DNA of 64,000 nt, taken from NCBI RefSeq assembly GCF_018130695.1, contig NZ_JAFCJX010000011.1, positions 1 to 64,000 of the forward strand, given 5' to 3'. Shown one piece after another: positions 21,801 through 33,535 of this stretch. The notes beneath the pieces were generated by a model, which had not been told where the DNA came from, ran no database searches, and was given only the letters and a program-made list of their open reading frames with translations. This DNA is from Bradyrhizobium jicamae (GTDB lineage Bacteria > Pseudomonadota > Alphaproteobacteria > Rhizobiales > Xanthobacteraceae). The number at the start of each line of letters is the position of its first letter. The stretch's first letter is position 1. The translations under genes and the position numbers were made by a program.

Positions 21801-23138
21801 TCACCGCTCCGCGCGATACCCATCCGTCAGCGTCTTCAGGAACGCGATGATGTCGGCCTCGTCCTGCGCGGTCATCGCCGGCTGATCGCCCGCCTTGCGG
21901 TCGAAGGGCGGATCGGTGACGTCGACATTGGCGTGATATTTCGCGGGCAGATCGTCGTACTTCTGCACCGAGCCGTCGGCCGCGCGCGGAAACACCTTTT
22001 CCGGATTCGTGTCGCGGAAATTGTAGAAGTCGAGCACCTGCTCGAGGCTGCTAAAGACGCCGTTGTGGAAGAACGCGCGGCGCGTCGCGGTGTTGCGCAG
22101 GCTTGGCGTGACGAACATCCCGCAATATTGGGTCTGCTCGGCGATGTCGGTGCGGTGCGGGCCGCAGACCCCGAGGTCGAAATAACCGGGGTTACCGTTG
22201 CCGGCGAGCGCGGTATTGCGCGGGGCACCGAGCGCTTCGTATTGATGGTCGGTGAACAGCGGCGGCAGGCCGTCGAGGGTCGGCGCCGAGGTATGGCAGC
22301 CCGCGCAATTGGCCTTGTCGGGATCGTTGAACAATTTGAGGCCGCGCAACTCGCTCTCGGACAGCCGCGCCTTGCCTTCGAGCCAGTGGTCGTACTTGCT
22401 GGTGTAGGGATGGAAGCTGACATCCTCGATCTGATAGCGCGCGACGGCGAACATCGCCTCGGAGACCAGCAGGCCGGTATTGCCGAACACGCCAGGCCCG
22501 AACAGGTCGGTGAAGCGCGCGGCGTAAGGCGCCTTGCGCAACTTGTCGGCGACGATGTCGATGCTGCCGCCGTCCATCTCGTTGGGATCGAGCAGCGGAA
22601 ACAGCGCCTGCTCCTGCAGGGTCTCGGCCCGGCCATCCCAGAACAGGCCGCCCTGCGGCACGATGTTGGCCGCCGAGGCCGCGGATCCGCCGGCGGTCTT
22701 CGTGGCGCGCGCGGCCTGCTGGCCGACCGCGGCCATCTGCGCGAGATCGATGACGTGGTCGTCGTCACCCTTGTCCGGGCCGATGCTGAAGACCGGCTGG
22801 CGCTCCAGATAGGTCAGTGACGGCACGGCGCGCATGCCCTGCCGCGACAGCGTGGCGCCGCCGAGCATCACCGGCCCGTCATTGGGTGGGCCGTAGGCGT
22901 GGTCCGGGCTGTGGCAGGAGACGCAGGCGAGCTTGCCCGACGAGGACAGCGAGACGTCGTAGAAGATCTCCTTGCCGAGCAGCGCCATCGCCGACAGCGG
23001 CGCGACCGGCGGGCGCATCAGGCGAACCGGATTCGGATTGACGCCCACAGGCGTCGCCTCCGGCGCCTCGCCCGCAAAGCAGACGCCGGCCAGCAAGAGC
23101 AGGCCGGCGCCGAGGAGCCACACGATGCGGCTGTTCAT
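21801..23138 (-). CDS. di-haem cytochrome c peroxidase / MauG family protein
   Basis: This 445-residue periplasmic protein has a signal peptide of about 22 residues and two c-type haem motifs, CVSCH (about residue 72) and CAGCH (about residue 280). This is the arrangement of bacterial cytochrome c peroxidases and MauG. FWDGRAETLQEQALFPLLDPNEM is the characteristic calcium/haem-bridging region. It may reduce peroxide with electrons from cytochrome c or act as a MauG-like oxidant of a protein or small substrate. It follows a phosphoesterase gene by only 23 bases on the same strand, so the pair is an operon. Confidence 0.88.
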   Translation of the reverse strand: MNSRIVWLLGAGLLLLAGVCFAGEAPEATPVGVNPNPVRLMRPPVAPLSAMALLGKEIFYDVSLSSSGKLACVSCHSPDHAYGPPNDGPVMLGGATLSRQGMRAVPSLTYLERQPVFSIGPDKGDDDHVIDLAQMAAVGQQAARATKTAGGSAASAANIVPQGGLFWDGRAETLQEQALFPLLDPNEMDGGSIDIVADKLRKAPYAARFTDLFGPGVFGNTGLLVSEAMFAVARYQIEDVSFHPYTSKYDHWLEGKARLSESELRGLKLFNDPDKANCAGCHTSAPTLDGLPPLFTDHQYEALGAPRNTALAGNGNPGYFDLGVCGPHRTDIAEQTQYCGMFVTPSLRNTATRRAFFHNGVFSSLEQVLDFYNFRDTNPEKVFPRAADGSVQKYDDLPAKYHANVDVTDPPFDRKAGDQPAMTAQDEADIIAFLKTLTDGYRAER

Positions 23139-23161: not shown

Positions 23162-24889
23162 TTATTGCGCCGGCGGGCTGGTCACGACCGTGCCGGACAC
23201 CGGATCGAGATACAGCGTGGCAGGCCGGACCTCGCGGCTATGGTCGTGATCGAAATCGAAGAGATCCATGATCGATCCGGCCTTTTCGTCGAACGCGCCG
23301 CCGCCGAGGCGCCGGTGCTGCAGCCAGTTGTCTTCGATGAAGGCCACCACGGAGGCCTGCGTCGTGTAGTTGTGGCTGACAAAGTTGGTCCTGGCGTAGG
23401 GCGAGACCAGGATCAGCGGAACGCGCGTTCCCGGACCGCAGCGGCCGTTCACCGGCTTGCCGGCAAGGCCGTCGGGCTGCTGCTGCTTGTCGGCGCCGCG
23501 GCCGCACAGGCCGGGACCGTTGACCTGATCGGCGGTCGGATCATAGGAGGCGGTCTTCGGCGCCATGTACTGGTGATCGTACCAGCCGTCGGAGTCGTCG
23601 TAAGTAATGATGATGGCGGTGTGGCGCCATTCCGGCTGCTGCTGGATGAAGTTGATCAGCGCGACGTTGCCGGCCTGCTCATCGAGCGGGTCGGAGTTGC
23701 CGGCGTGACCGTCCTGATAGGCCGGCATCTTGATGTAGGAGACGGCCGGGAAGTTGCCGGCCTTCACCGCGGCGTAGAAGTCCTGCAGATCGTAATTGTG
23801 GTTGGCCGGATCGAGCGCCGTTCCACCCACGACCTTGCTATGGCCGATCGCGGCGACCGAGCTCGGACGCGCATGGGTCGGGTTGGCCGTCGAGGCGTGA
23901 TACTGGAAGAAGGCGTGGTGCGGCACGTAGTCGACGATGGTGCTGTTGACGGTGCTCGAGAACGTGCTGCGCCCGCAGCCGGTGGTGCCGTTGGCGTTCT
24001 TGAGCGTCAGGTCGAAGCCGCCCATGAAGCTGCCCCAGCTGATGCGCTCGGCGGTGAGCAGGTCGCCGATGTTCTTGCCGCCCATCAGCATCGTGCTGGT
24101 CGTGCTGGAGCACGCGTCATGGCCGGGATCGGTGTCGCCGGTGAGCGTCAGGCCGCCCTGCCCGTCCGCAATCGATGACGTCGTGCCGATCACCGGCTGC
24201 ACGCCGTTGGTCTGGCCGGCGACCACCTCGAGCACGCCGGGCGTCGACGGACCGAACGTGTCGGTCCAGTTGTTGTCGCTCATGGCGAAGTGCTGCGCGT
24301 AATTCCACAGCGCGGTGACGGTGTTGCCGTCGAAATAGCCCATCACCTGGCCATTGGTGCCGAAAGCGCCGGTGGCGCCCGCCGTGCCGCGGCCGGTGTA
24401 CTTCGGAAAAAGGTCTTCCTTGCCGTTGTCGACGGCCTGCTGCTCGGGCGTATAGGAGTGGTTCTGCGAGCGCGTGTTGGCCTGGGTGCGATCGAGGCGG
24501 AACGGGTTCGACGCGTTGATCACCCCGTTGCTGTTGTTGGCGGGGTTGAGGTTCGGATTGTTGGTCAGCAAATTGTTGTTGGCGAGGTTGTTGACCTTCG
24601 GGGTATGCGGCCGCGGCACGAACGGGATCGATCCGGACGGATTGCCCGCGTTCGGATAGGTCGCGAAATAATGGTCGAAGGAGCGGTTCTCGTTGAAGAT
24701 CACCACGAGATGCTTGATCGGCGTCTCCGTGGGGATCTCATGCCCGCGGCGATGATCGTTGTCATGGCCCTGGTTGTCGTGATTGCCCTGGTTACCCTGA
24801 TTGTCCTGACCTGCGAAAACCGGAATGCTGCACGCAATCGCAGCCGCGACCGCAAGGACCGATGCGGTCGACAGAAGCTTCGTTTTCAT
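23162..24889 (-). CDS. secreted phosphoesterase (phospholipase C / acid phosphatase AcpA type)
   Basis: This 575-residue protein has a signal peptide of about 26 residues, a Gln/Asn/His/Asp-rich stretch of about 25 residues, and the phosphoesterase family start IKHLVVIFNENRSFDHYF, where Glu and Asn bind catalytic metal. ITYDDSDGWYDHQ and RVPLILVSPYAR are later conserved blocks. Relatives hydrolyse phospholipids or phosphomonoesters outside the cytoplasm. An Asn-rich insert (VNNLANNNLLTNNPNLN) is unusual. The ATG at 24889 heads the signal peptide; six codons upstream are in frame but not needed. It is first in a two-gene operon with the MauG-like protein. Confidence 0.85.
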   Translation of the reverse strand: MKTKLLSTASVLAVAAAIACSIPVFAGQDNQGNQGNHDNQGHDNDHRRGHEIPTETPIKHLVVIFNENRSFDHYFATYPNAGNPSGSIPFVPRPHTPKVNNLANNNLLTNNPNLNPANNSNGVINASNPFRLDRTQANTRSQNHSYTPEQQAVDNGKEDLFPKYTGRGTAGATGAFGTNGQVMGYFDGNTVTALWNYAQHFAMSDNNWTDTFGPSTPGVLEVVAGQTNGVQPVIGTTSSIADGQGGLTLTGDTDPGHDACSSTTSTMLMGGKNIGDLLTAERISWGSFMGGFDLTLKNANGTTGCGRSTFSSTVNSTIVDYVPHHAFFQYHASTANPTHARPSSVAAIGHSKVVGGTALDPANHNYDLQDFYAAVKAGNFPAVSYIKMPAYQDGHAGNSDPLDEQAGNVALINFIQQQPEWRHTAIIITYDDSDGWYDHQYMAPKTASYDPTADQVNGPGLCGRGADKQQQPDGLAGKPVNGRCGPGTRVPLILVSPYARTNFVSHNYTTQASVVAFIEDNWLQHRRLGGGAFDEKAGSIMDLFDFDHDHSREVRPATLYLDPVSGTVVTSPPAQ

Positions 24890-24907
24890 TGTTGCCCCAC
24901 TGTTCAA

Positions 24908-25355
24908 TGTAAAAGCCGGGACACACTTATTCGTCGTCCGTGACAGCCCTGTGTCAGTTTGACGCAGCAGGGATCATCGACGGATTTTTGGTGTGGGCGC
25001 CTCCGATTCACACTCGGAATCGGCAAAAGAGCCACGCCTCACAACGACCTGCGGTTGCAGCGACTGCCTGATCGTCACGGCTTTCCGTTCCGCGGACCGC
25101 GACAGGAAAGTTCGCAAGTGTGGGCCAGTTCATAGAATCGAGGGCGCGGGAACAGCAGAGTTGACTGGCGACATCGATGCGCAGCTGGCGAGGGCACTGC
25201 GAGCGTAGAGGCTGCGGCAAAACCCCATCATCCAGCGGCGGAAAACCAGCGATAGTGTGGGCAGAATTACATCTTCCGAACGAAACACGTATTAGTTGTA
25301 ATTTCAGGCTTGAGCGCGACGACGGTTCGACGGCTTGCCACCAGGGAGAGTGAAC
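24908..25355. other. 450-base intergenic region before the peroxidase-P450 fusion gene
   Basis: No gene is supported. The stretch separates the divergent phosphoesterase operon and the large fusion gene, so it should hold both promoters. Seven-base arms AATTACA (25265-25271) and TGTAATT (25297-25303) form an inverted repeat about 55 bases before the fusion start and could be an operator. An open frame at 24993-25208 has no ribosome site and no family likeness. Confidence 0.4.
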
Positions 25356-28300
25356 ATGCGTCGGGATTTGACGATCAAGAACGGCAGCATGGCCGGCACT
25401 TCGGATTTCAGGGTGCTCGCTCCGATCAAGAAAGGGTTCGTGCCGTCGCTGGATGCGACCACCTACAAGACACGCGTCAAATACGTGCTGCGGACGCTGA
25501 ATGCCGGCCGCGCCTTTGCGTTCGAATACGAACTTGCCCGCATCCTGTCCGACTCCGTGGAGCGCGTCGGACGCATCCACTCCGTGGGCATCGCCGTGCT
25601 CGAGCCCGAGGACGACCCCGAGGACTATGTGCTGCTCACCGTGACATTCGACGGCGCGTGGGAAGCCTATGTCCGCACCATCTGGCAGAAGGTCGCGCGG
25701 CTGCTCGATCTCATCTTCTGCAACACCGAGGGTTATGTCCTCGGCTATGAGAACACCTATGAAGACTGGGGCAAATGGCTGAAGAGCAGCCAGACCGAAG
25801 CCTACTTCCTCTACGCCGTCCCCGACCTGACCGTCGATGACACCCGCTACCTGCAGATGGAGGAGCGGGTCTACCGGCGCGCCACAGGCGACAATGCCGA
25901 CCTCCTGGTCACGCGGATCAAGATTCCGTCGCCGGAGGAGATCGCGCAGCGCGGCATCTTCGAGGTCGACGGCCTGATCGGCGTCGATCCCACCGATGCC
26001 GGCTACAGCAAGCCGCTCACCGTCGAGATCGCGGGCCGGCCCCCGTTCCGTCATGGTGTCGGCACGCTGGCCGGGCTGTACCGGCTGGCCGACTACTATC
26101 CGCCCGGCACCGACGACGGGAAGATCCTGCACCGTGCCGCCCATGAGCTGCTGCCGGAATTCGTCGCCATGATCAACGACGGCAACAGCTACGCGGAAGG
26201 CATCGGCCGCGCGCGCCGGCGGTTTGACGAGGCCATGCTCTGGTTGATGTCCCCGCCCGACGTCGCGCCGGTGCGGCAAGACCTGCCGCTCGCCTTGCCG
26301 GCCGTGCCGCCGGTGCAGGATCGCGGCAATGTGCAAGGCGGGATTCTGACATCCTATGAGAACACGGATCACGGCTGCCTGCTGTTGCTGCAGTTCACGA
26401 CGCCGGCGGCGCTGGCCGCCTTCCTGAACGCGCTGCAGGTGACGTCGGAAGCCGACGATCTGAAAGAGCGGCAGTTCACCACCAACATCGCGTTCACGGT
26501 CGAGGGCCTGCGCTACGCCGGACTGTCGGATGCCGAGGTGCGCAGCCTGCCGGATGAGTTCGTGCAGGGCATGGAGCGCCGCGCCGGCCTGCTCGGCGAC
26601 GTCCGCTGGAATCATCCGCGGCGATGGCGCCTGCCGGCAAGCAACTGGGCGCTCGGGATCAACGCGCCTGATGTGCGCGAAGACGACCCGGCGCCGCGCA
26701 TCGACATGAGCTCCGTCCACGCCGTCCTTCAGCTCCGCCTGCTGTCCAAGACGCCGCCGGCAACGGAGAAGGCGCGCGCACCGTTGATGGCCGAAATGCA
26801 GCGCCTGGTCGACGTCGATCCCGGCGTCAGGCCACTTTCGATCCAGTGGATGCAGCGTCAGCACGATGCGTCCGGTGCGACGCAGGACCATTTCGGTTTC
26901 GTCGACGGCAATTCGAACCCGGTGCTGCGCAAGGACCAGGCCGGCACGCGCTATCCCAATCAGGTGCATCTCGGCGAGGTCCTGTGCGGCTATCCGAACC
27001 TGGCCGACAAGAAGGCTCCTTTCGGCGACGACACCAATCGCGTTCACATGCTGCTTCGCGACGGCAGCTTCCTGGCGCTGAGGAAACTTCGACAGGATAT
27101 CGAAGCACTCGAGGAAGTGCTCTACCGCAACACGCGACAGGCGGCCGACGCGGCCGCGGCCGGCGCCACCGCACCCGTCCTGCCGCGCGAAACGCTGCTG
27201 GCCAAGATGATGGGACGCTGGCCCACCGGGCACCCGCAGGCGGGTGAGCCGCTGAACCCGGTTCATCCAACCGACAAGCTGCTCAACGACTTCAACTACG
27301 ATTACGACACGCAGGCCAAGCTGTGTCCGTTTCACGCGCACATCAGGCGTGCCAATCCACGCGTGCGGGTCACGCGGGCGGATGGCGGCGTTCGGCCGCC
27401 GCGCATCATCCGGCGCGGCATGTCCTACGGTCCGCCGCTCAAACCCGACGACGGCAGGGATGCCGTGCAACAGGAGCGCGGCCTCGTCTTCATGGCCTAC
27501 AATGCGAGCCTCGGCGAACAGTTCGAGGTGGTGCAGCGCTGGCTCGCCGGCGGCAACAGCTCGGGCTCCTACTCCGGGCAAAGCGACCCCTTCCTCGGCC
27601 TCGCCGAGCCTGGCCGGCTGCGCCATTTCCGTTTCGAGCATGACGGCCAGACGGTTCGCGTGGCGCTCGACGGTTCCGACCGCCTCCACGACGAGCCGCG
27701 CCCGTTCGTGCGCCTGGAATGGGGCGCCTACTTCTTTGCGCCCTCGAAGAAGGCGCTCGCGACCTTGCAGCAATGGGCGGAGGAGCGTTGTCGCAAGCCG
27801 CAGGTGACGTGGAGCGCGGATGCCGGCGAAGAGGAGATCGCGCGGCTGCGTGAGATCGAGCGCCTGCACGGTGACGCCGAGGCGGCGGCCGCATGGAAGA
27901 CGGCGCTCGAAGATCCGGATTCAGCCGCGAACTTCATCAATGCGTCGATCTGGGCTGCGATCCGCGAGCGCCACGGCGGCGTGCTGCGCACGCCGTTCGG
28001 GGTGCTGGTCGCCGACCGGGACATGGTCCATCAGGTCTTTGCCGATCCCGAGCACAGGCTGACGATCACCGGCTACCTGCCCCGCATGCAACGCTCGTTC
28101 GGCATCCTCTATCTCGGCCGCGACGCCGGACAGGAGGACCATGCGTATGAGCGGGAGTCCGAAGTCGGCAATGCCGCCATCATGGCGCTCGACCAGCCGG
28201 CGGCATTCGAGCTGGCGCGGACGACGATCCAGCGCGTACTCGACTGCTTGGTCGAGGAATCGATCGGCTATGCCCGGGACGACGGCGAAGCGAGCTGGAA

Positions 28301-30113
28301 TCTGACGGTCGATGTGCGCGAACTGATCGATCCGCTGTTCATGATCTTCTGTGAAGAGTGGTTCGGCATGAGCGAGCAGGACGGTCTGTTCCGCCGCTCC
28401 GGCTATCGCTGGGACTGGAAGCCGGGCGAGCCCCCCAACTATCCCGGCCATTACCTGTCGCCCTCGCGCTACATCTTCCAGCCGCATCCGAACCAGGAGG
28501 TCGAGGCCGTCGGCGCCGCGCACGGCGCCGCGGTCCGCACCGCCATGATCGAATATCTCAACCGGTTCAAGGCAACGATCACCGCGCCGGTCACACGCGC
28601 CGTCCTCGACTCGCCACGGGCCGTCGGCGACATCCCGTATGTGGCGCGCACCATCGCCGGCGCCATGATGGGCTTCATTCCGACCGTCGACGGCAATTTG
28701 CGCCGCATCCTGAACGAATGGCTGCGCGAAGGAACGCTGTGGTCGTTGCGTGCGCGCTATGCCGGCACGACCGCAAGAGACTACATCGACGCCCTCAACC
28801 GGCTGCGAGACGATTTCATCCCGGCGATGCAGCTGCGCGCGGTACCCGAACTGATATGGCGGACAGCCGTCCTTACACACACGCTGGGAAAGGACGAGCA
28901 CGCGGTCGAGGTCAGGCCGGGCGACATCGTCGTCGCCGGCGCGGTATCTGCCACCCAGCAAAATCTCGCCGAAGGCCGCCAGGATCTCTATCCCGCCTTC
29001 GGCGGCAACCGCAGGGTCCAGGGGCATCCCACGCATTCGTGTCCCGGAGCAAATCCGGCGCTCGCCGTGATGCTGGGCTTCTTCAGCGCGCTGGTGGAAA
29101 CCAAGCTGCCGCTGCGGGCCGGCCCCGGTCCGCTGACGCTGAGCATGGACGGAAGGCTGCCGCCGCAGCCCGGCTCTCCCCTCACCCTTGCCCTGGAGAC
29201 CAGAATGTTGACCGCAAATGATTTCCGTACATTTGATTTCCGTTCATCGACCATTCCGGCGCTCCACGATCCCCACGCCTATCAGATCCAGGACGCCGAC
29301 AGGCTCTTGAGGGCCACCACGACCGAGATCGTCACACTCGGCGATTCCTGGCTGTTCGAATTCCCGCCGGCCTTCTTCCGGCCGAGCCTCTCATCATCGC
29401 TCAAGAAGCTGCGCTACGTAGCCGGTAACGGCCATCACTTCGGCACGTTCGGCGCACGCCTCGAGGAGATGGCGCGTCCCGACAGCCTCGACAAACTGCG
29501 AAATTGTTTCCTCAATCCCGATCCCCTTGCGCCGCCACCGCAGGCACTCGTGATGGGTGGTGGCGGAAATGACATCGTCTATGGCTACTTCGCGCCGGCG
29601 ACCACGCCGCTCTTCAAGATGCTGCTCCAGGCACCGGCTGCCGGCGTCGACCCGCTGATCGAGGACGAGGTCCACGCGTTCATCGACATCAAGATCGCCA
29701 ACTTCTACCGGACCATCCTCGATTGCATCGTCCACGAACTGAAGGATCACACCGACATTCCGATCCTGATCCATGGCTATGATTATGCGATCCCCGACGG
29801 CCGGAGGGATCCGGCGGCCGGCCCGTGGCTGTTTCCGATCTTCAAGGCACGCGGCATCCTCGACCTGTCCGTGTCAACCAAAGTGGTGCGGCGTCTCATC
29901 GACCGGGTCGGCGCGGTGGTGGCGACGGTCGCAGCCGAGTATCCGGGCCGCGTGTTCCCGGTCAAAACCGCCGGCACGCTGGAGCAGGATCCCCGCTTCC
30001 AAGTCGACTACAAGCTGCTGTGGGCCAATGAATTCCACCCGACGGAGGCGGGCTTCGACCTGCTGGCAGAGGTGGTCCGCAAGAAGCTCAAGGACGAGCT
30101 TCACATCGGCTGA
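25356..30113 (+). CDS. four-part fusion: N-terminal domain, DyP peroxidase, cytochrome P450, SGNH hydrolase
   Basis: This 1585-residue protein has no signal peptide. Residues 1-320 are unrecognised, with alpha+beta stretches (IHSVGIAVLEP, YVLLTVTFDG) that recall one half of a DyP barrel. Residues about 325-800 are a DyP-type peroxidase: GFVDG at 514-518, the proximal haem His662 in CPFHAHIRR, and RRGMSYG (Arg686-Arg687) for the distal side. Residues about 850-1290 are a cytochrome P450, with its haem Cys1229 in HSCPGANPA; the I helix reads GFIPT (1106-1110). Residues about 1320-1585 are an SGNH/GDSL hydrolase: GDSW (Ser1331), GGGGND (1401-1406) and EFHPTEAG (His1561). AGGGAG stands seven bases before the ATG. 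The frame is uninterrupted. It could carry out consecutive hydrolysis and oxidation of a lipid-like substrate; that role is inference. Confidence 0.85.
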   Translation: MRRDLTIKNGSMAGTSDFRVLAPIKKGFVPSLDATTYKTRVKYVLRTLNAGRAFAFEYELARILSDSVERVGRIHSVGIAVLEPEDDPEDYVLLTVTFDGAWEAYVRTIWQKVARLLDLIFCNTEGYVLGYENTYEDWGKWLKSSQTEAYFLYAVPDLTVDDTRYLQMEERVYRRATGDNADLLVTRIKIPSPEEIAQRGIFEVDGLIGVDPTDAGYSKPLTVEIAGRPPFRHGVGTLAGLYRLADYYPPGTDDGKILHRAAHELLPEFVAMINDGNSYAEGIGRARRRFDEAMLWLMSPPDVAPVRQDLPLALPAVPPVQDRGNVQGGILTSYENTDHGCLLLLQFTTPAALAAFLNALQVTSEADDLKERQFTTNIAFTVEGLRYAGLSDAEVRSLPDEFVQGMERRAGLLGDVRWNHPRRWRLPASNWALGINAPDVREDDPAPRIDMSSVHAVLQLRLLSKTPPATEKARAPLMAEMQRLVDVDPGVRPLSIQWMQRQHDASGATQDHFGFVDGNSNPVLRKDQAGTRYPNQVHLGEVLCGYPNLADKKAPFGDDTNRVHMLLRDGSFLALRKLRQDIEALEEVLYRNTRQAADAAAAGATAPVLPRETLLAKMMGRWPTGHPQAGEPLNPVHPTDKLLNDFNYDYDTQAKLCPFHAHIRRANPRVRVTRADGGVRPPRIIRRGMSYGPPLKPDDGRDAVQQERGLVFMAYNASLGEQFEVVQRWLAGGNSSGSYSGQSDPFLGLAEPGRLRHFRFEHDGQTVRVALDGSDRLHDEPRPFVRLEWGAYFFAPSKKALATLQQWAEERCRKPQVTWSADAGEEEIARLREIERLHGDAEAAAAWKTALEDPDSAANFINASIWAAIRERHGGVLRTPFGVLVADRDMVHQVFADPEHRLTITGYLPRMQRSFGILYLGRDAGQEDHAYERESEVGNAAIMALDQPAAFELARTTIQRVLDCLVEESIGYARDDGEASWNLTVDVRELIDPLFMIFCEEWFGMSEQDGLFRRSGYRWDWKPGEPPNYPGHYLSPSRYIFQPHPNQEVEAVGAAHGAAVRTAMIEYLNRFKATITAPVTRAVLDSPRAVGDIPYVARTIAGAMMGFIPTVDGNLRRILNEWLREGTLWSLRARYAGTTARDYIDALNRLRDDFIPAMQLRAVPELIWRTAVLTHTLGKDEHAVEVRPGDIVVAGAVSATQQNLAEGRQDLYPAFGGNRRVQGHPTHSCPGANPALAVMLGFFSALVETKLPLRAGPGPLTLSMDGRLPPQPGSPLTLALETRMLTANDFRTFDFRSSTIPALHDPHAYQIQDADRLLRATTTEIVTLGDSWLFEFPPAFFRPSLSSSLKKLRYVAGNGHHFGTFGARLEEMARPDSLDKLRNCFLNPDPLAPPPQALVMGGGGNDIVYGYFAPATTPLFKMLLQAPAAGVDPLIEDEVHAFIDIKIANFYRTILDCIVHELKDHTDIPILIHGYDYAIPDGRRDPAAGPWLFPIFKARGILDLSVSTKVVRRLIDRVGAVVATVAAEYPGRVFPVKTAGTLEQDPRFQVDYKLLWANEFHPTEAGFDLLAEVVRKKLKDELHIG

Positions 30114-33100
30114 CGTGCACCCGTCACCAAGCGGATCGCGTGCTCCGCGTGCCAATGCATGCCGAGCGCGTGCAGTTTCGCGGTGGCTTCCGCTGCGATC
30201 TGCTGGGCCGCCTCACTCTGCCCCTGGTGGGCAAGAAGCTCACCGCGCGCGGCCATGTTCAGGGCGGCGTCGCGCAGCGATCCGCGCCAGCCTGCCGACG
30301 TGTCGGCCCGCTGCAGCCAGCGCTGGCTTCGCCCAAAATCGTGGCGCCGGGCTGCGAGCCTCGCAAGCGAACGGCATGCCATCGCCTCGCCGATCCGCTC
30401 TCCCTCGCGCGCGCGGGCGAGCACATGGGCGGCGTAGCGCCGCGCGGTGTCGACATCGCCCTCGGCCGCCGCCGCCTCGACCAGCCAGCTATACTGAACC
30501 GAGGTGTAGAAGTGGAAGTTTCGCCGTTCCATCCATTGCGCGGCATTCCGCAACTGCTGCAGACCGTCGGCATCGCCGCTCGCCGACCAGCGCGCAAATC
30601 CGGACGCGGCGCGGCAATCCGCCAGCAGCAGCAGGCTGCGGGTATTTTCGGCGACGCGCGCGCCCTCGACGGCGAGGCGCTCCGCTTCCTGCCAGCGGCC
30701 TTGCCAGACCAGCGCGACCGAGATCCAGTTGCGCACCGAATTGACGACCGGATGGGTCGACCCTTCGACCAGAGCCATCGCTTCATTGAAACATTCGTGA
30801 GCGCCGTCGAAATCGCCGCGATCCGCCAGGACGCCGCCCTTGCACGACAGCGCATAGGCCGAGCCGATGGCGATGGCGCCGTGCCGGCGGCTGCGTTGCT
30901 GCTTGGCCGAGATGGCTGCGTCGATCAAGGCGATGGCTTCGTCGTACTGACAGCTGGCGGCGAGAATCTGGCCCAGCGTGGCTTCGATCTGGGCGATCAG
31001 GCGCGGCTCCCCGAGCTTGCGCGCGATTTCCAGCGCCGTCCGTGTGTGTGTCACGCCCTCCCGAAAGCGGCCGAAGCCATAGCACATGTAGCCAAGCCAT
31101 TCGTAGGCACTCGCCATCGCGGCGGTATCGCCGAGCGAGGACGCGATCGAGACCGCCTTCTCGAATACGCTGGTGTCATCGGTCAACGATAGCGGGTCGA
31201 ATATGCTGGCCATGCCCAATTTATTGGCCAGCAGGCACCAGCGCAGCGACTGCTCGCGCGTGCGGTTCTGCACGCGATCCAGCGATTCCATCGCAACCTG
31301 ATACTGGGCGCGGGCACGGTCGAGCGCGAACGCGGCCATCGCCTTGTCGCCGGCACGTTCGGCATAACGGGCCGCGCTTTCCCAATGGCCTGCGCCGCGC
31401 GAATGGTAGGCCAGGGCTTCCAGCGCGTCTTCGCGATCGGCCTGCTCGGATCGTGCCAAAAATGTCGCTTCGATGCGCTTGTGCATGGCCTGACGCTCGT
31501 GCAGGCCGATGGTGTCGTACACCGCGTCCCGCGTGATGCCATGCTTGAAGCGAAGGACACTGCCCGCCGGATCGGCATAGAGAAAATCCGCGTCGGCCAA
31601 TGCCCGCACCGTCGCCGGATCGGGCTCGCTGCCGCAGGCCGAAACCAGCAACCCGTTCGGCACCGTGTTTCCAATGACCGCCGCGGCGCGCACCACGTTC
31701 ATTTCATCCGGCGGCAGCCGCGCCAGCCGCGAGGCGACCAGCGTTGCGATCCATCCTTGCTTGCTGCGCATTTCGAACGATGCAGGATTGTTGGCCGAGA
31801 TGGAATGGCACAGCTCTTCAATGAACAGCGGCACCCCGCCGGCATAGGCGTGAACACGGGCCACCAGGAAGGGATCGGCCTGCGGCACCCAGCGTCGGAC
31901 CGCAAGGTCGGTTTCCGGTCCCTCGAACGGCTGCAGCAGCAGATGCGGCGCGCCGGCAATCCACTCGGTGCCGTCGTCGCGCGGCCGGCTGGCGAGGATG
32001 ACCCGCGGTCCGTTGGGCAATTGCAGGATTGCCTCGAGCAACTGCCGGCTCGCGTCATCGGACCATTGCCAGTCGTCGATCACCAGCACCAACGCATCCT
32101 GCGCGGATACGGCCGTGAAGAATCCAAGCAGGTCACCGACCACGCCATCGACGGTGATCCGGCCGCCGCGCGCATCAGCGCCGGTCGACGCCAGCCCGAT
32201 GATCGCGTTAGCACGCGGACCGAGCTGGGCGACCCATGGCTGCAGCGCGGCACGGGCCGTCTCGTTGGCCTCGGCGACAGATGCGTCCGGCCGTATTCCG
32301 AGGCAGGCGCGCAGCATCTGCAGGAAGGGCTGCAGAACCTCGGCACCGACATAACTCTCGCAGCTGCCCCGCAACAGCTTGAACTGTTCGGTGCCGCACT
32401 GTCGCAAGACTTCTTCCAGAAGGCGCGTCTTGCCGAGCCCGGGACCGCCAACGACGACCGCGCAACGTTGCTTGGCCGGTTTTCCCTCGCCGAGAAAGCC
32501 GGTCAGGAAGTTGAAGATCTCGTCGCGGCCAATGAAGGGCGTCAAGCCGCGGCGGGACGTGGCCTCAAATCGCCGGGTCGCCGTGCTTCGTCTCAGCACC
32601 ACCCGCGCCTGCGGCATTCCGGACGCCGGCCCCGATGTTTGCAGATAGCCGCCGAGCTCGAAGAAATTCGCATGAGGCCCGAGGGCATCAATGCTGGCGA
32701 GGATCTGACCTGGACCGGCGTAGCGCGACAGGTGCGCCGCCGTGTTCACGACATCGCCGATCAGGTCGTACCGGCCTGACTCGATGTCGCCTTCCGCGAG
32801 CAGCAGGGTGCCGGCGTGGATCCCGGAATGCATGCGAAGCGGCATCAGCGCCGGCGACACACCGTCGTGGCGCAACTGTCCGACCCATTGGTGAATATCG
32901 AGTGCGGCTTCTGCGGCACGACGCCCGTCATCCTCGCCCGACCGTGGATAGCCGAACACGGCGAGAGCACCGTCACCTTGCGTCCTGATCACCCGGCCGC
33001 CGTGCTTGGCCACCGCGCGATGCCAGATCTGCCGCAGCTGGCCCAGCAGCTCGGACAGGTCTTCCGACTCCATATCTCTGCCCAGGACGGTGGACCCGAC

Positions 33101-33166
33101 GAGGTCAGAGAAAAGCACCGTCAATCGATGACGTTCGCCTTTCGGGTCACGGACATGTACATTCAT
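30101..33166 (-). CDS. class III nucleotidyl cyclase / AAA ATPase / TPR signalling protein
   Basis: This 1021-residue cytoplasmic protein has an N-terminal class III adenylate/guanylate cyclase domain. Its metal-binding Asp are in LFSDLVGST and TQGDGALAVFG, and GDVVNTAAHLS is the following conserved block. A STAND-like AAA domain comes next, with Walker A GGPGLGKTRLLEE and Walker B VLVIDDWQWSD. About 500 residues of TPR helices complete it. The plan is that of the cyclase-ATPase-TPR regulators common in rhizobia and mycobacteria, but without a C-terminal LuxR helix-turn-helix. The ATG at 33166 is preferred; a TTG at 33202 is also in frame. Its last 13 bases overlap the end of the fusion gene, tail to tail. 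The signal it senses is unknown. Confidence 0.85.
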   Translation of the reverse strand: MNVHVRDPKGERHRLTVLFSDLVGSTVLGRDMESEDLSELLGQLRQIWHRAVAKHGGRVIRTQGDGALAVFGYPRSGEDDGRRAAEAALDIHQWVGQLRHDGVSPALMPLRMHSGIHAGTLLLAEGDIESGRYDLIGDVVNTAAHLSRYAGPGQILASIDALGPHANFFELGGYLQTSGPASGMPQARVVLRRSTATRRFEATSRRGLTPFIGRDEIFNFLTGFLGEGKPAKQRCAVVVGGPGLGKTRLLEEVLRQCGTEQFKLLRGSCESYVGAEVLQPFLQMLRACLGIRPDASVAEANETARAALQPWVAQLGPRANAIIGLASTGADARGGRITVDGVVGDLLGFFTAVSAQDALVLVIDDWQWSDDASRQLLEAILQLPNGPRVILASRPRDDGTEWIAGAPHLLLQPFEGPETDLAVRRWVPQADPFLVARVHAYAGGVPLFIEELCHSISANNPASFEMRSKQGWIATLVASRLARLPPDEMNVVRAAAVIGNTVPNGLLVSACGSEPDPATVRALADADFLYADPAGSVLRFKHGITRDAVYDTIGLHERQAMHKRIEATFLARSEQADREDALEALAYHSRGAGHWESAARYAERAGDKAMAAFALDRARAQYQVAMESLDRVQNRTREQSLRWCLLANKLGMASIFDPLSLTDDTSVFEKAVSIASSLGDTAAMASAYEWLGYMCYGFGRFREGVTHTRTALEIARKLGEPRLIAQIEATLGQILAASCQYDEAIALIDAAISAKQQRSRRHGAIAIGSAYALSCKGGVLADRGDFDGAHECFNEAMALVEGSTHPVVNSVRNWISVALVWQGRWQEAERLAVEGARVAENTRSLLLLADCRAASGFARWSASGDADGLQQLRNAAQWMERRNFHFYTSVQYSWLVEAAAAEGDVDTARRYAAHVLARAREGERIGEAMACRSLARLAARRHDFGRSQRWLQRADTSAGWRGSLRDAALNMAARGELLAHQGQSEAAQQIAAEATAKLHALGMHWHAEHAIRLVTGARQPM

Positions 33167-33535
33167 CGTTGCTGTCGAGGCCAGCTCGTTCCCGAACAGC
33201 AAGCACGGTCCTAACTGGCGCTAGACCGGATGCCGCAAGGGCATCATACACAGCCGTAGAAGCCCGGCTACCCTTCGCGAGCGCAAGGTAAACGGTCGGG
33301 AGGTCGCATCAACCGGAGATGGCACTCCGCGCGGCCGCCTCGAAACAAAATCTAACCCGTTCAAAAACCTGATTCATTTCCCTTGGCGGCACGCCTGCGT
33401 TGTCGCGGCATGCACGGCAATCGGCTACCTTCGGACTATCGAGGGCCAAGCGGACCCCATATGCTCGCACTTGCTTCGCGGGTTTATGACGTCACGTCCC
33501 GGCCACCTCGCCCGCCCCACTCTGGAGACGCCAGC
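33167..33535. other. 370-base divergent intergenic region
   Basis: This lies between the cyclase gene (minus) and the binding-protein gene (plus). I see no gene, RNA or convincing operator. It should contain both promoters. Confidence 0.5.

Follow-up and report, generated by a model that had tools for sequence, protein, structure and literature searches.

A single gene of Bradyrhizobium jicamae encodes a four-part chain in which a DyP-type peroxidase domain and a P450-fold domain stand between an N-terminal DyP-partner domain and an SGNH/GDSL-type hydrolase domain, and its 3' end meets that of a conserved nucleotide cyclase gene. We propose, with a probability of roughly 40%, that this protein oxidizes its substrate, probably an acyl lipid, in a two-haem reaction that is driven by the peroxidase without a reductase and is tied to nucleotide signalling. 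The gene lies in the 64,000-nucleotide stretch analysed here (the window), which comes from a host genome of 8.68 Mb. The following features of the window are used below.

25356..26321, + strand: N-terminal domain (residues 1-322), matched to stand-alone genes by profile A3, with no Pfam or PDB match
26322..27770, + strand: DyP-type peroxidase domain (residues 323-805), placed by Pfam, TIGR01413, solved DyPs and key residues
27771..29270, + strand: P450-fold domain (residues 806-1305) with Cys1229, placed by hhalign, AF2, Foldseek, VIA-align and motif tables
29304..30110, + strand: SGNH/GDSL-type hydrolase domain (residues 1317-1585), placed by a weak Pfam match and conserved blocks
30101..33202, - strand: class III nucleotide cyclase-AAA_16-TPR gene, the convergent neighbour, recognized from its ORF and Pfam
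23162-24907, - strand: phospholipase-C-like phosphoesterase gene, upstream of and divergent from the fusion, recognized by profile matches
21801-23138, - strand: MauG-like di-haem enzyme gene, nearest solved relative 6nx0

The preliminary description of this DNA had reported one uninterrupted frame of 1585 codons, and the reading frame agrees: frame +1 on the forward strand is open from 25356 to 30113, with a stop at its end. The ORF lister started the frame upstream, at a TTG at 25335, and a GGGAGAG-type ribosome site lies immediately 5' of the ATG at 25356. Third-codon-position GC is 0.76-0.88 in every one of eight blocks of the frame. The motifs also fall where they had been placed, with GFVDG at residue 514, CPFHAH at 657 (His662), HSCPG at 1227 (Cys1229), GDSW at 1329, GGND at 1403 and EFHPTE at 1559 (His1561). 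Measured against two orthologues, dN/dS is 0.20-0.33 for each of the four parts, so all of them are under purifying selection. Because the orthologous frames are unbroken in many species and every part has such a dN/dS, we regard it as scarcely credible that a frameshift or assembly artefact made the fusion, a reading for which we found no supporting evidence.

A scan of named genomes for related proteins gave 30 loci. The N-terminal, DyP and P450-fold domains share one frame in 25 of them, which upholds the earlier view that no frameshift or stop separates the domains; in the retrieved regions of four others (L053, L054, L056 and L059) the P450-like domain occurs without DyP, and at the last (L060) both the fusion-type frame and the cyclase frame are broken, so that locus was omitted from alignments and trees. 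Bradyrhizobium accounts for 16 of the 30 loci, and the other taxa include Rhodoblastus, Methylocystaceae, Hyphomicrobiaceae, Henriciella, Hyphomonas, Sandarakinorhabdus, Vineibacter, Phenylobacterium, Burkholderiales and Variovorax. One further member (E up to 1e-15) turned up when 385 genomes of the class, the window's own included, were drawn and searched. Alignments A2, A3, A4 and A5 hold 21, 16, 15 and 5 rows from the 30 loci, respectively, each plus the window. The full-length tree, which was built by a quick method and has long branches, omits L047, L053, L054, L056, L059 and L060.

Family profiles and solved relatives both support the earlier assignment of the middle domain to the DyP-type peroxidases. 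Pfam PF20628 (Dyp_perox_C) matches it at 27.6 bits, above the cut-off of 20, and NCBIfam TIGR01413 (Dyp_perox_fam) at E 2.3e-27 and 96.2 bits, which is under the cut-off of 100.5 by 4. Solved DyPs match from E 1.5e-24, and the closest are 8re3, 8re2 and 7anv (ancestral D-type). Up to E 1, none of the domain's Pfam matches is to an animal-type peroxidase. Of 16 aligned DyP domains, 14 have the Asp of GxxDG (D517) and 2 have Glu there, while H662 and both arginines of the RRG motif (R686 and R687) are present in all 16. We take D517 to be the catalytic Asp, H662 the proximal His and R686/R687 the distal Arg, as in the DyP family generally, and on these residues the active site is complete-looking.

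The P450 assignment rests on other methods. Pfam gives no P450 match in the window protein and a single one, at E 0.16, among the 22 members of the aligned family; Pfam alone was therefore insufficient for this part of the chain, since it misses a domain that profile and structure comparison find. A profile of the 22 relatives searched against the PDB met mainly P450s (36 of 39 among the matches listed, best E 0.0026), some of which we class as P450s by what we take their names to mean. Compared by hhalign with the 14 P450s of the same genome, the P450-like profile reached a probability of 96.6 and E 4.8e-10 over 339 columns. The AF2 model of the domain is confident (pLDDT 89.7), with a low-confidence linker at residues ~1283-1305. 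Foldseek returned 1260 matches to it at E up to 0.001, and the best 50 of the 1260 are P450s; in VIA-align the best match is P450BioI with acyl-ACP (Z 29.9, rmsd 2.7, 344 residues). Profile-profile comparison and the predicted structure thus show P450 ancestry and fold, and the earlier call stands in that respect despite the silence of Pfam.

The preliminary description had gone further and spoken of two haem enzymes. The DyP domain and the P450 fold hold up, but the phrase is overstated for a P450 domain that lacks both the ExxR motif and the I-helix acid. ExxR is otherwise close to universal in P450s, and it is present in all 14 ordinary P450s of the genome and in four of four P450s paired with DyPs; among the 22 P450-like domains it is found in none, and the window protein has PAMQ in its place. 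The FGxG stretch of the FxxGxxxCxG loop is likewise absent from the alignment of 22, with HxC kept, which leaves a shortened Cys loop. At the I-helix acid position all 22 P450-like domains carry Pro (Pro1109 in the window) and the four DyP-paired P450s carry Pro (3) or Ala (1), against D/E in 11 of 14 ordinary P450s, the other 3 of which lack D/E, so that the rule has exceptions. The I-helix Thr is kept in 18 of 22. Reductase-independent P450s are known to depart from the usual I-helix pattern too. What the family has retained is the haem-ligand Cys1229, a Cys in 22 of 22, together with the His of HxC, Arg1169 and Arg1219, each also in 22 of 22. Given the missing ExxR, the Pro at the I-helix acid site and the short Cys loop, we describe the domain as a P450-fold and probably haem-thiolate domain that is not a canonical P450. 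Cys1229 suggests that haem is bound; the absence of ExxR and the short Cys loop mean that this part may be non-catalytic. In a tree of 18 of the 22 A2 rows, with limited sampling and some long branches, the P450-like domains and the four DyP-paired P450s fall on one side and the 14 other P450s of the genome on the other, with support of 100/99.6. No Fer2 ferredoxin gene, the one type of ferredoxin gene sought, lies near the fusion, the nearest on the contig being at 8.6-8.8 kb, >16 kb off.

The first 320 or so residues had been called unrecognized, and they remain so in the databases: Pfam gives no match under E 0.05, only chance-level ones, and the PDB gives none, with a best E of 0.53 when stand-alone members are added. 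By hhalign, this domain has no relation to the DyP half. Its AF2 model is poor (pLDDT 49), and it was left out of the fold search for that reason. Profile A3 nevertheless picks up separate genes that adjoin DyP genes in other Bradyrhizobium. We examined 14 DyP regions that lack the P450-like family, chosen from a set of DyP hits of which only some were fetched with wide flanks. An N-terminal-type domain occurs in 8 of the 14, as stand-alone genes near DyP genes at L030, L085, L087, L088, L090 and L092 and as a weak mid-protein match in two other DyP-bearing proteins (L031 and L083). The N-terminal domain is a DyP-partner domain that forms a separate gene at other loci, and its first ~175 residues hold the partner domain proper, with a conserved FDGxWExYxR motif.

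In 4 of the same 14 regions (L031, L083, L084 and L094) a P450 lies near the DyP or is fused to it, and at L031 the cyclase, P450 and DyP genes are consecutive on one strand. The fusion belongs to a recurring DyP/P450 module whose parts elsewhere stand as neighbouring genes or are joined in other fusions. The preliminary description had mentioned neither this module nor the cyclase neighbour. The host genome holds another such protein on contig C16 (L003:2583-7244): P0003, of 1554 residues, has the reverse order, P450-partner domain-DyP, with a Pfam-recognized P450 whose ExxR is intact and a partner domain in which membrane segments seem likely by eye. Around P0003 (L083) we found no cyclase match. 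At L030:7142-10762, a 1207-residue frame consists of a DyP followed by several hundred unrecognized residues and is convergent with a cyclase-AAA-TPR gene. In another Bradyrhizobium, a RoxA-like di-haem peroxidase gene (L088:6520-8214) directly adjoins a DyP gene. On the Sphingopyxis plasmid pDB-1 (L023:6968-12418), a DyP-P450-like gene without a start adjoins a Tn3 transposase gene, with mercury-resistance genes in the vicinity, and its cyclase and Crp gene remain. The sole annotation of that copy is 'Dyp-type peroxidase domain-containing protein', a name that covers the DyP alone, so P450 parts of this kind can go unnoticed.

The C-terminal hydrolase call is supported by a weak, sub-cut-off profile match and by conserved catalytic blocks. 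Pfam Lipase_GDSL_2 matches at 22.9 bits (E 1.4e-4), below its cut-off of 32.9, and a solved GDSL lipase matches by profile at E 0.016. Ser1331 (GDS), Gly1366, Asn1405 (GxND) and His1561 are each found in 6 of 6 SGNH parts; the Asp position of DxxH is Asn (Asn1558) in all six. Only 6 of the 25 fused loci have the domain: five carry it and in L042 it begins before the contig end cuts it. The remaining 19 show none, one of them (L047) being cut short. In the genome of L047 (G035), a second contig (L028) starts inside a P450-like part and runs on into SGNH and a convergent cyclase; we treated L047 and L028 as separate and did not join them. The tree requires two SGNH changes, which we read as one gain, by the ancestor of the Bradyrhizobium-Rhodoblastus-Methylocystaceae clade, and one loss inside Bradyrhizobium. 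The domain is a late addition, confined to one clade, part of which has since lost it. It is not essential, because most family members lack it and a Bradyrhizobium clade has lost it.

At L050, L051, L052, G019 and L025, where SGNH is absent, a patatin-like gene lies directly 5' of the fusion (identified by Pfam for L050 and L051 and by clustering for L052, G019 and L025). That two unrelated families of lipid hydrolase are linked to one and the same fusion is the strongest pointer to an ester-lipid substrate. The preliminary description had suggested that the hydrolase first frees a lipid that is then oxidized. We infer the same order of events, and because a non-homologous lipase precedes the fusion in an SGNH-less clade, the idea has circumstantial support.

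The most constant neighbour of the fusion is the cyclase gene, whose 3' end overlaps that of the fusion by 13 bases. A cyclase homologue adjoins, or lies one gene from, 27 of the 30 related loci, convergent downstream in 22, same-strand downstream in 2 and same-strand upstream in 3; at L048 and L049 one frame intervenes. Three loci lack it. Two of these stop at a contig edge (in L042 and L047 the contig ends 2 bases past the frame), and the third is L032, where an MFS transporter gene stands downstream in the cyclase's place and the contig begins 355 bases upstream. The extra member from the 385-genome draw has a convergent cyclase as well. Only 4 genes of the cyclase-AAA-TPR type with a long match occur in the window genome. 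Because its orientation changes across loci, the cyclase's presence argues for maintained linkage, with the related Bradyrhizobium loci lowering the number of independent cases. A cyclase is also near 6 of the 14 DyP regions without the P450-like family (L030, L031, L084, L089, L092 and L093), and L087 and L090 have only short or weak cyclase matches. At the Arg of the NxAAR motif, the window cyclase and 11 of its Bradyrhizobium orthologues, all of the same clade (L033-L041, L043 and L046), have His; the Arg is kept in L044 (Rhodoblastus), in Bradyrhizobium L050 and L052 and in most other aligned cyclases, and the usual cyclase Lys is mostly Arg or Gln in the alignment. If the Arg is the catalytic one of class III cyclases, the His-bearing enzymes may make no cAMP, or their activity or product may be changed.

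Other neighbours recur less widely. A cluster of Crp-type neighbours spans eight loci, its member at L049 being an odd 699-residue frame, and Pfam confirms a Crp-type cNMP-binding regulator at L044 and L054 within the cluster and also at L058 and L023. Linkage of the fusion with the MauG-like and phospholipase-C-like genes of the window was considered and dropped, as neither has relatives beside other loci at the clustering threshold. In three of the four stand-alone P450-like loci, a RoxA-like di-haem peroxidase adjoins the cyclase:

L054:14444-16153: RoxA-like di-haem peroxidase, beside the cyclase
L056:14201-15907: RoxA-like di-haem peroxidase, beside the cyclase
L059:13057-14862: RoxA-like di-haem peroxidase, beside the cyclase

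Two of the three also match an NCBIfam di-haem cytochrome c peroxidase family. Perhaps these enzymes stand in for the DyP at such loci.

Under the reading we prefer, the protein would be a four-part haem protein, probably cytosolic, and the fused form of a module of N-terminal partner, DyP and P450-fold domains. Its SGNH domain, or a patatin-type lipase in the sister lineage, would release or trim an acyl substrate; the DyP domain would use peroxide to turn this into a substrate radical or hydroperoxide; and the P450-fold domain, with no reductase partner and no proton-relay acid, would receive the activated intermediate and rearrange or further oxidize it. The product, or the redox state, would be coupled to the adjacent cyclase and, at some loci, to the Crp-type regulator. 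Counting for two-haem oxidation are the P450 ancestry, the I-helix Pro, the DyP residues, the recurring pairing, the cyclase linkage, the two lipid-hydrolase families and the lack of a near Fer2 gene. Counting against it are the loss of ExxR, the absence of SGNH from most loci, the Asp-to-Asn change in DxxH, the four DyP-less loci, the three ordinary P450s without an I-helix D/E, the His for Arg in the cyclase and the locus (L032) without a cyclase.

The strongest rival holds that the module is a redox sensor that switches nucleotide signalling, the P450-fold domain being no enzyme but a haem-thiolate sensor through which peroxide, NO, CO or ligand state is signalled to the cyclase-AAA-TPR protein. 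We consider this possible but somewhat doubtful. It would explain why the P450-like domain and the cyclase stay together even at the loci without DyP, why ExxR and the I-helix acid are gone while every member keeps the Cys, the His of HxC and two Arg, and why Crp-type cNMP-binding regulators lie close by in several loci; for a pure sensor, however, a complete-looking DyP active site and fused or adjacent lipid hydrolases would be superfluous, and there are DyP-cyclase pairs that lack this P450-like family. Both the sensor and the two-haem oxidation predict haem in the P450-fold domain, and only the oxidation predicts a product.

If there is a product, its precursor need not be a lipid. DyPs oxidize dyes and phenolics, and the chain could serve the catabolism or oxidative tailoring of an aromatic or some other non-lipid molecule, be it a secondary metabolite or one derived from lignin, with the hydrolase freeing an ester. 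The soil genus and the MauG-type and PQQ-enzyme genes in the same window fit such a role. We nonetheless think it unlikely: the conserved neighbour is a signalling gene, and the annotated shared neighbours (not all are annotated) include no biosynthetic or aromatic-catabolic family. Polymeric lignin would be an unlikely substrate in particular, because no signal peptide is evident by eye on the fusion. A conflict system, in which a STAND-like cyclase protein senses phage infection and the oxidase/lipase protein damages membranes, would account for partial matches of the cyclase domain to PycC profiles of Pycsar defence (best E 5.5e-14), the patatin neighbour in one clade and the scattered occurrence of the gene, in 2 of the 385 genomes drawn from the class, its own included. 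The PycC matches are limited to the common cyclase domain, though, and when PADLOC was run on five proteins, neither the fusion nor P0003 nor the patatin protein was matched; we judge an anti-phage role very improbable.

With the solved DyP-type peroxidases (8re3, 8re2 and 7anv) the Bradyrhizobium protein has in common GxxDG, the proximal His and the distal Arg, but its DyP sits within a chain of four parts, one of them a P450-fold domain. With bacterial P450s, of which P450BioI is the best structural match, it shares the fold over 344 residues and the haem Cys; it differs from them in lacking ExxR, in its shortened Cys loop and in the change of the I-helix acid to Pro. This P450 lineage has shed ExxR. 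The DyP-PFL fusions of fungi and bacteria similarly join a DyP to another enzyme domain (PMC5041501), and the partner there is a glycyl-radical domain, unrelated to the one found here. Among bacterial oxylipin makers, the oleate-diol synthase of P. aeruginosa consists of the di-haem peroxidases PA2077/PA2078, described as RoxA-related (PMC4496055). The RoxA-like peroxidases at three stand-alone P450-like loci recall PA2077/8 by shared RoxA likeness alone, and the P. aeruginosa system has no DyP and no P450.

The nearest parallel in architecture is with the fungal DOX-CYP proteins (PpoA and the linoleate diol, allene oxide and epoxy alcohol synthases), in which a peroxidase-type haem domain is likewise followed by a P450 in one chain. 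To our knowledge, peroxidase-P450 fusions are known only from fungi, where they make hormone-like oxidized lipids, and in the titles and abstract openings searched, subscription papers and preprints aside, we found no DyP-P450 fusion. The P450 partner of the fungal enzymes is described as self-sufficient, and its distal residues are discussed, in PMC13049297. In the Bradyrhizobium chain the peroxidase is a DyP and not of the animal/COX type, there are additional N-terminal and SGNH parts, and the P450 lacks ExxR. If our reading holds, the fusion would work like a fungal DOX-CYP, yet it is no member of that family, because its peroxidase comes from another superfamily. A bolder version, which we put forward as a rather unlikely extension, is that the gene is a bacterial counterpart of Ppo, built independently from a DyP and a remodelled P450 with a built-in lipase (or a patatin gene), whose product is read by a dedicated cyclase-AAA-TPR protein in an oxidized-lipid second-messenger circuit. 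Because a cyclase gene is conserved beside the fusion, what such a product signals can be tested directly. If true, a bacterial version on an unrelated peroxidase would represent convergent evolution of the same pairing.
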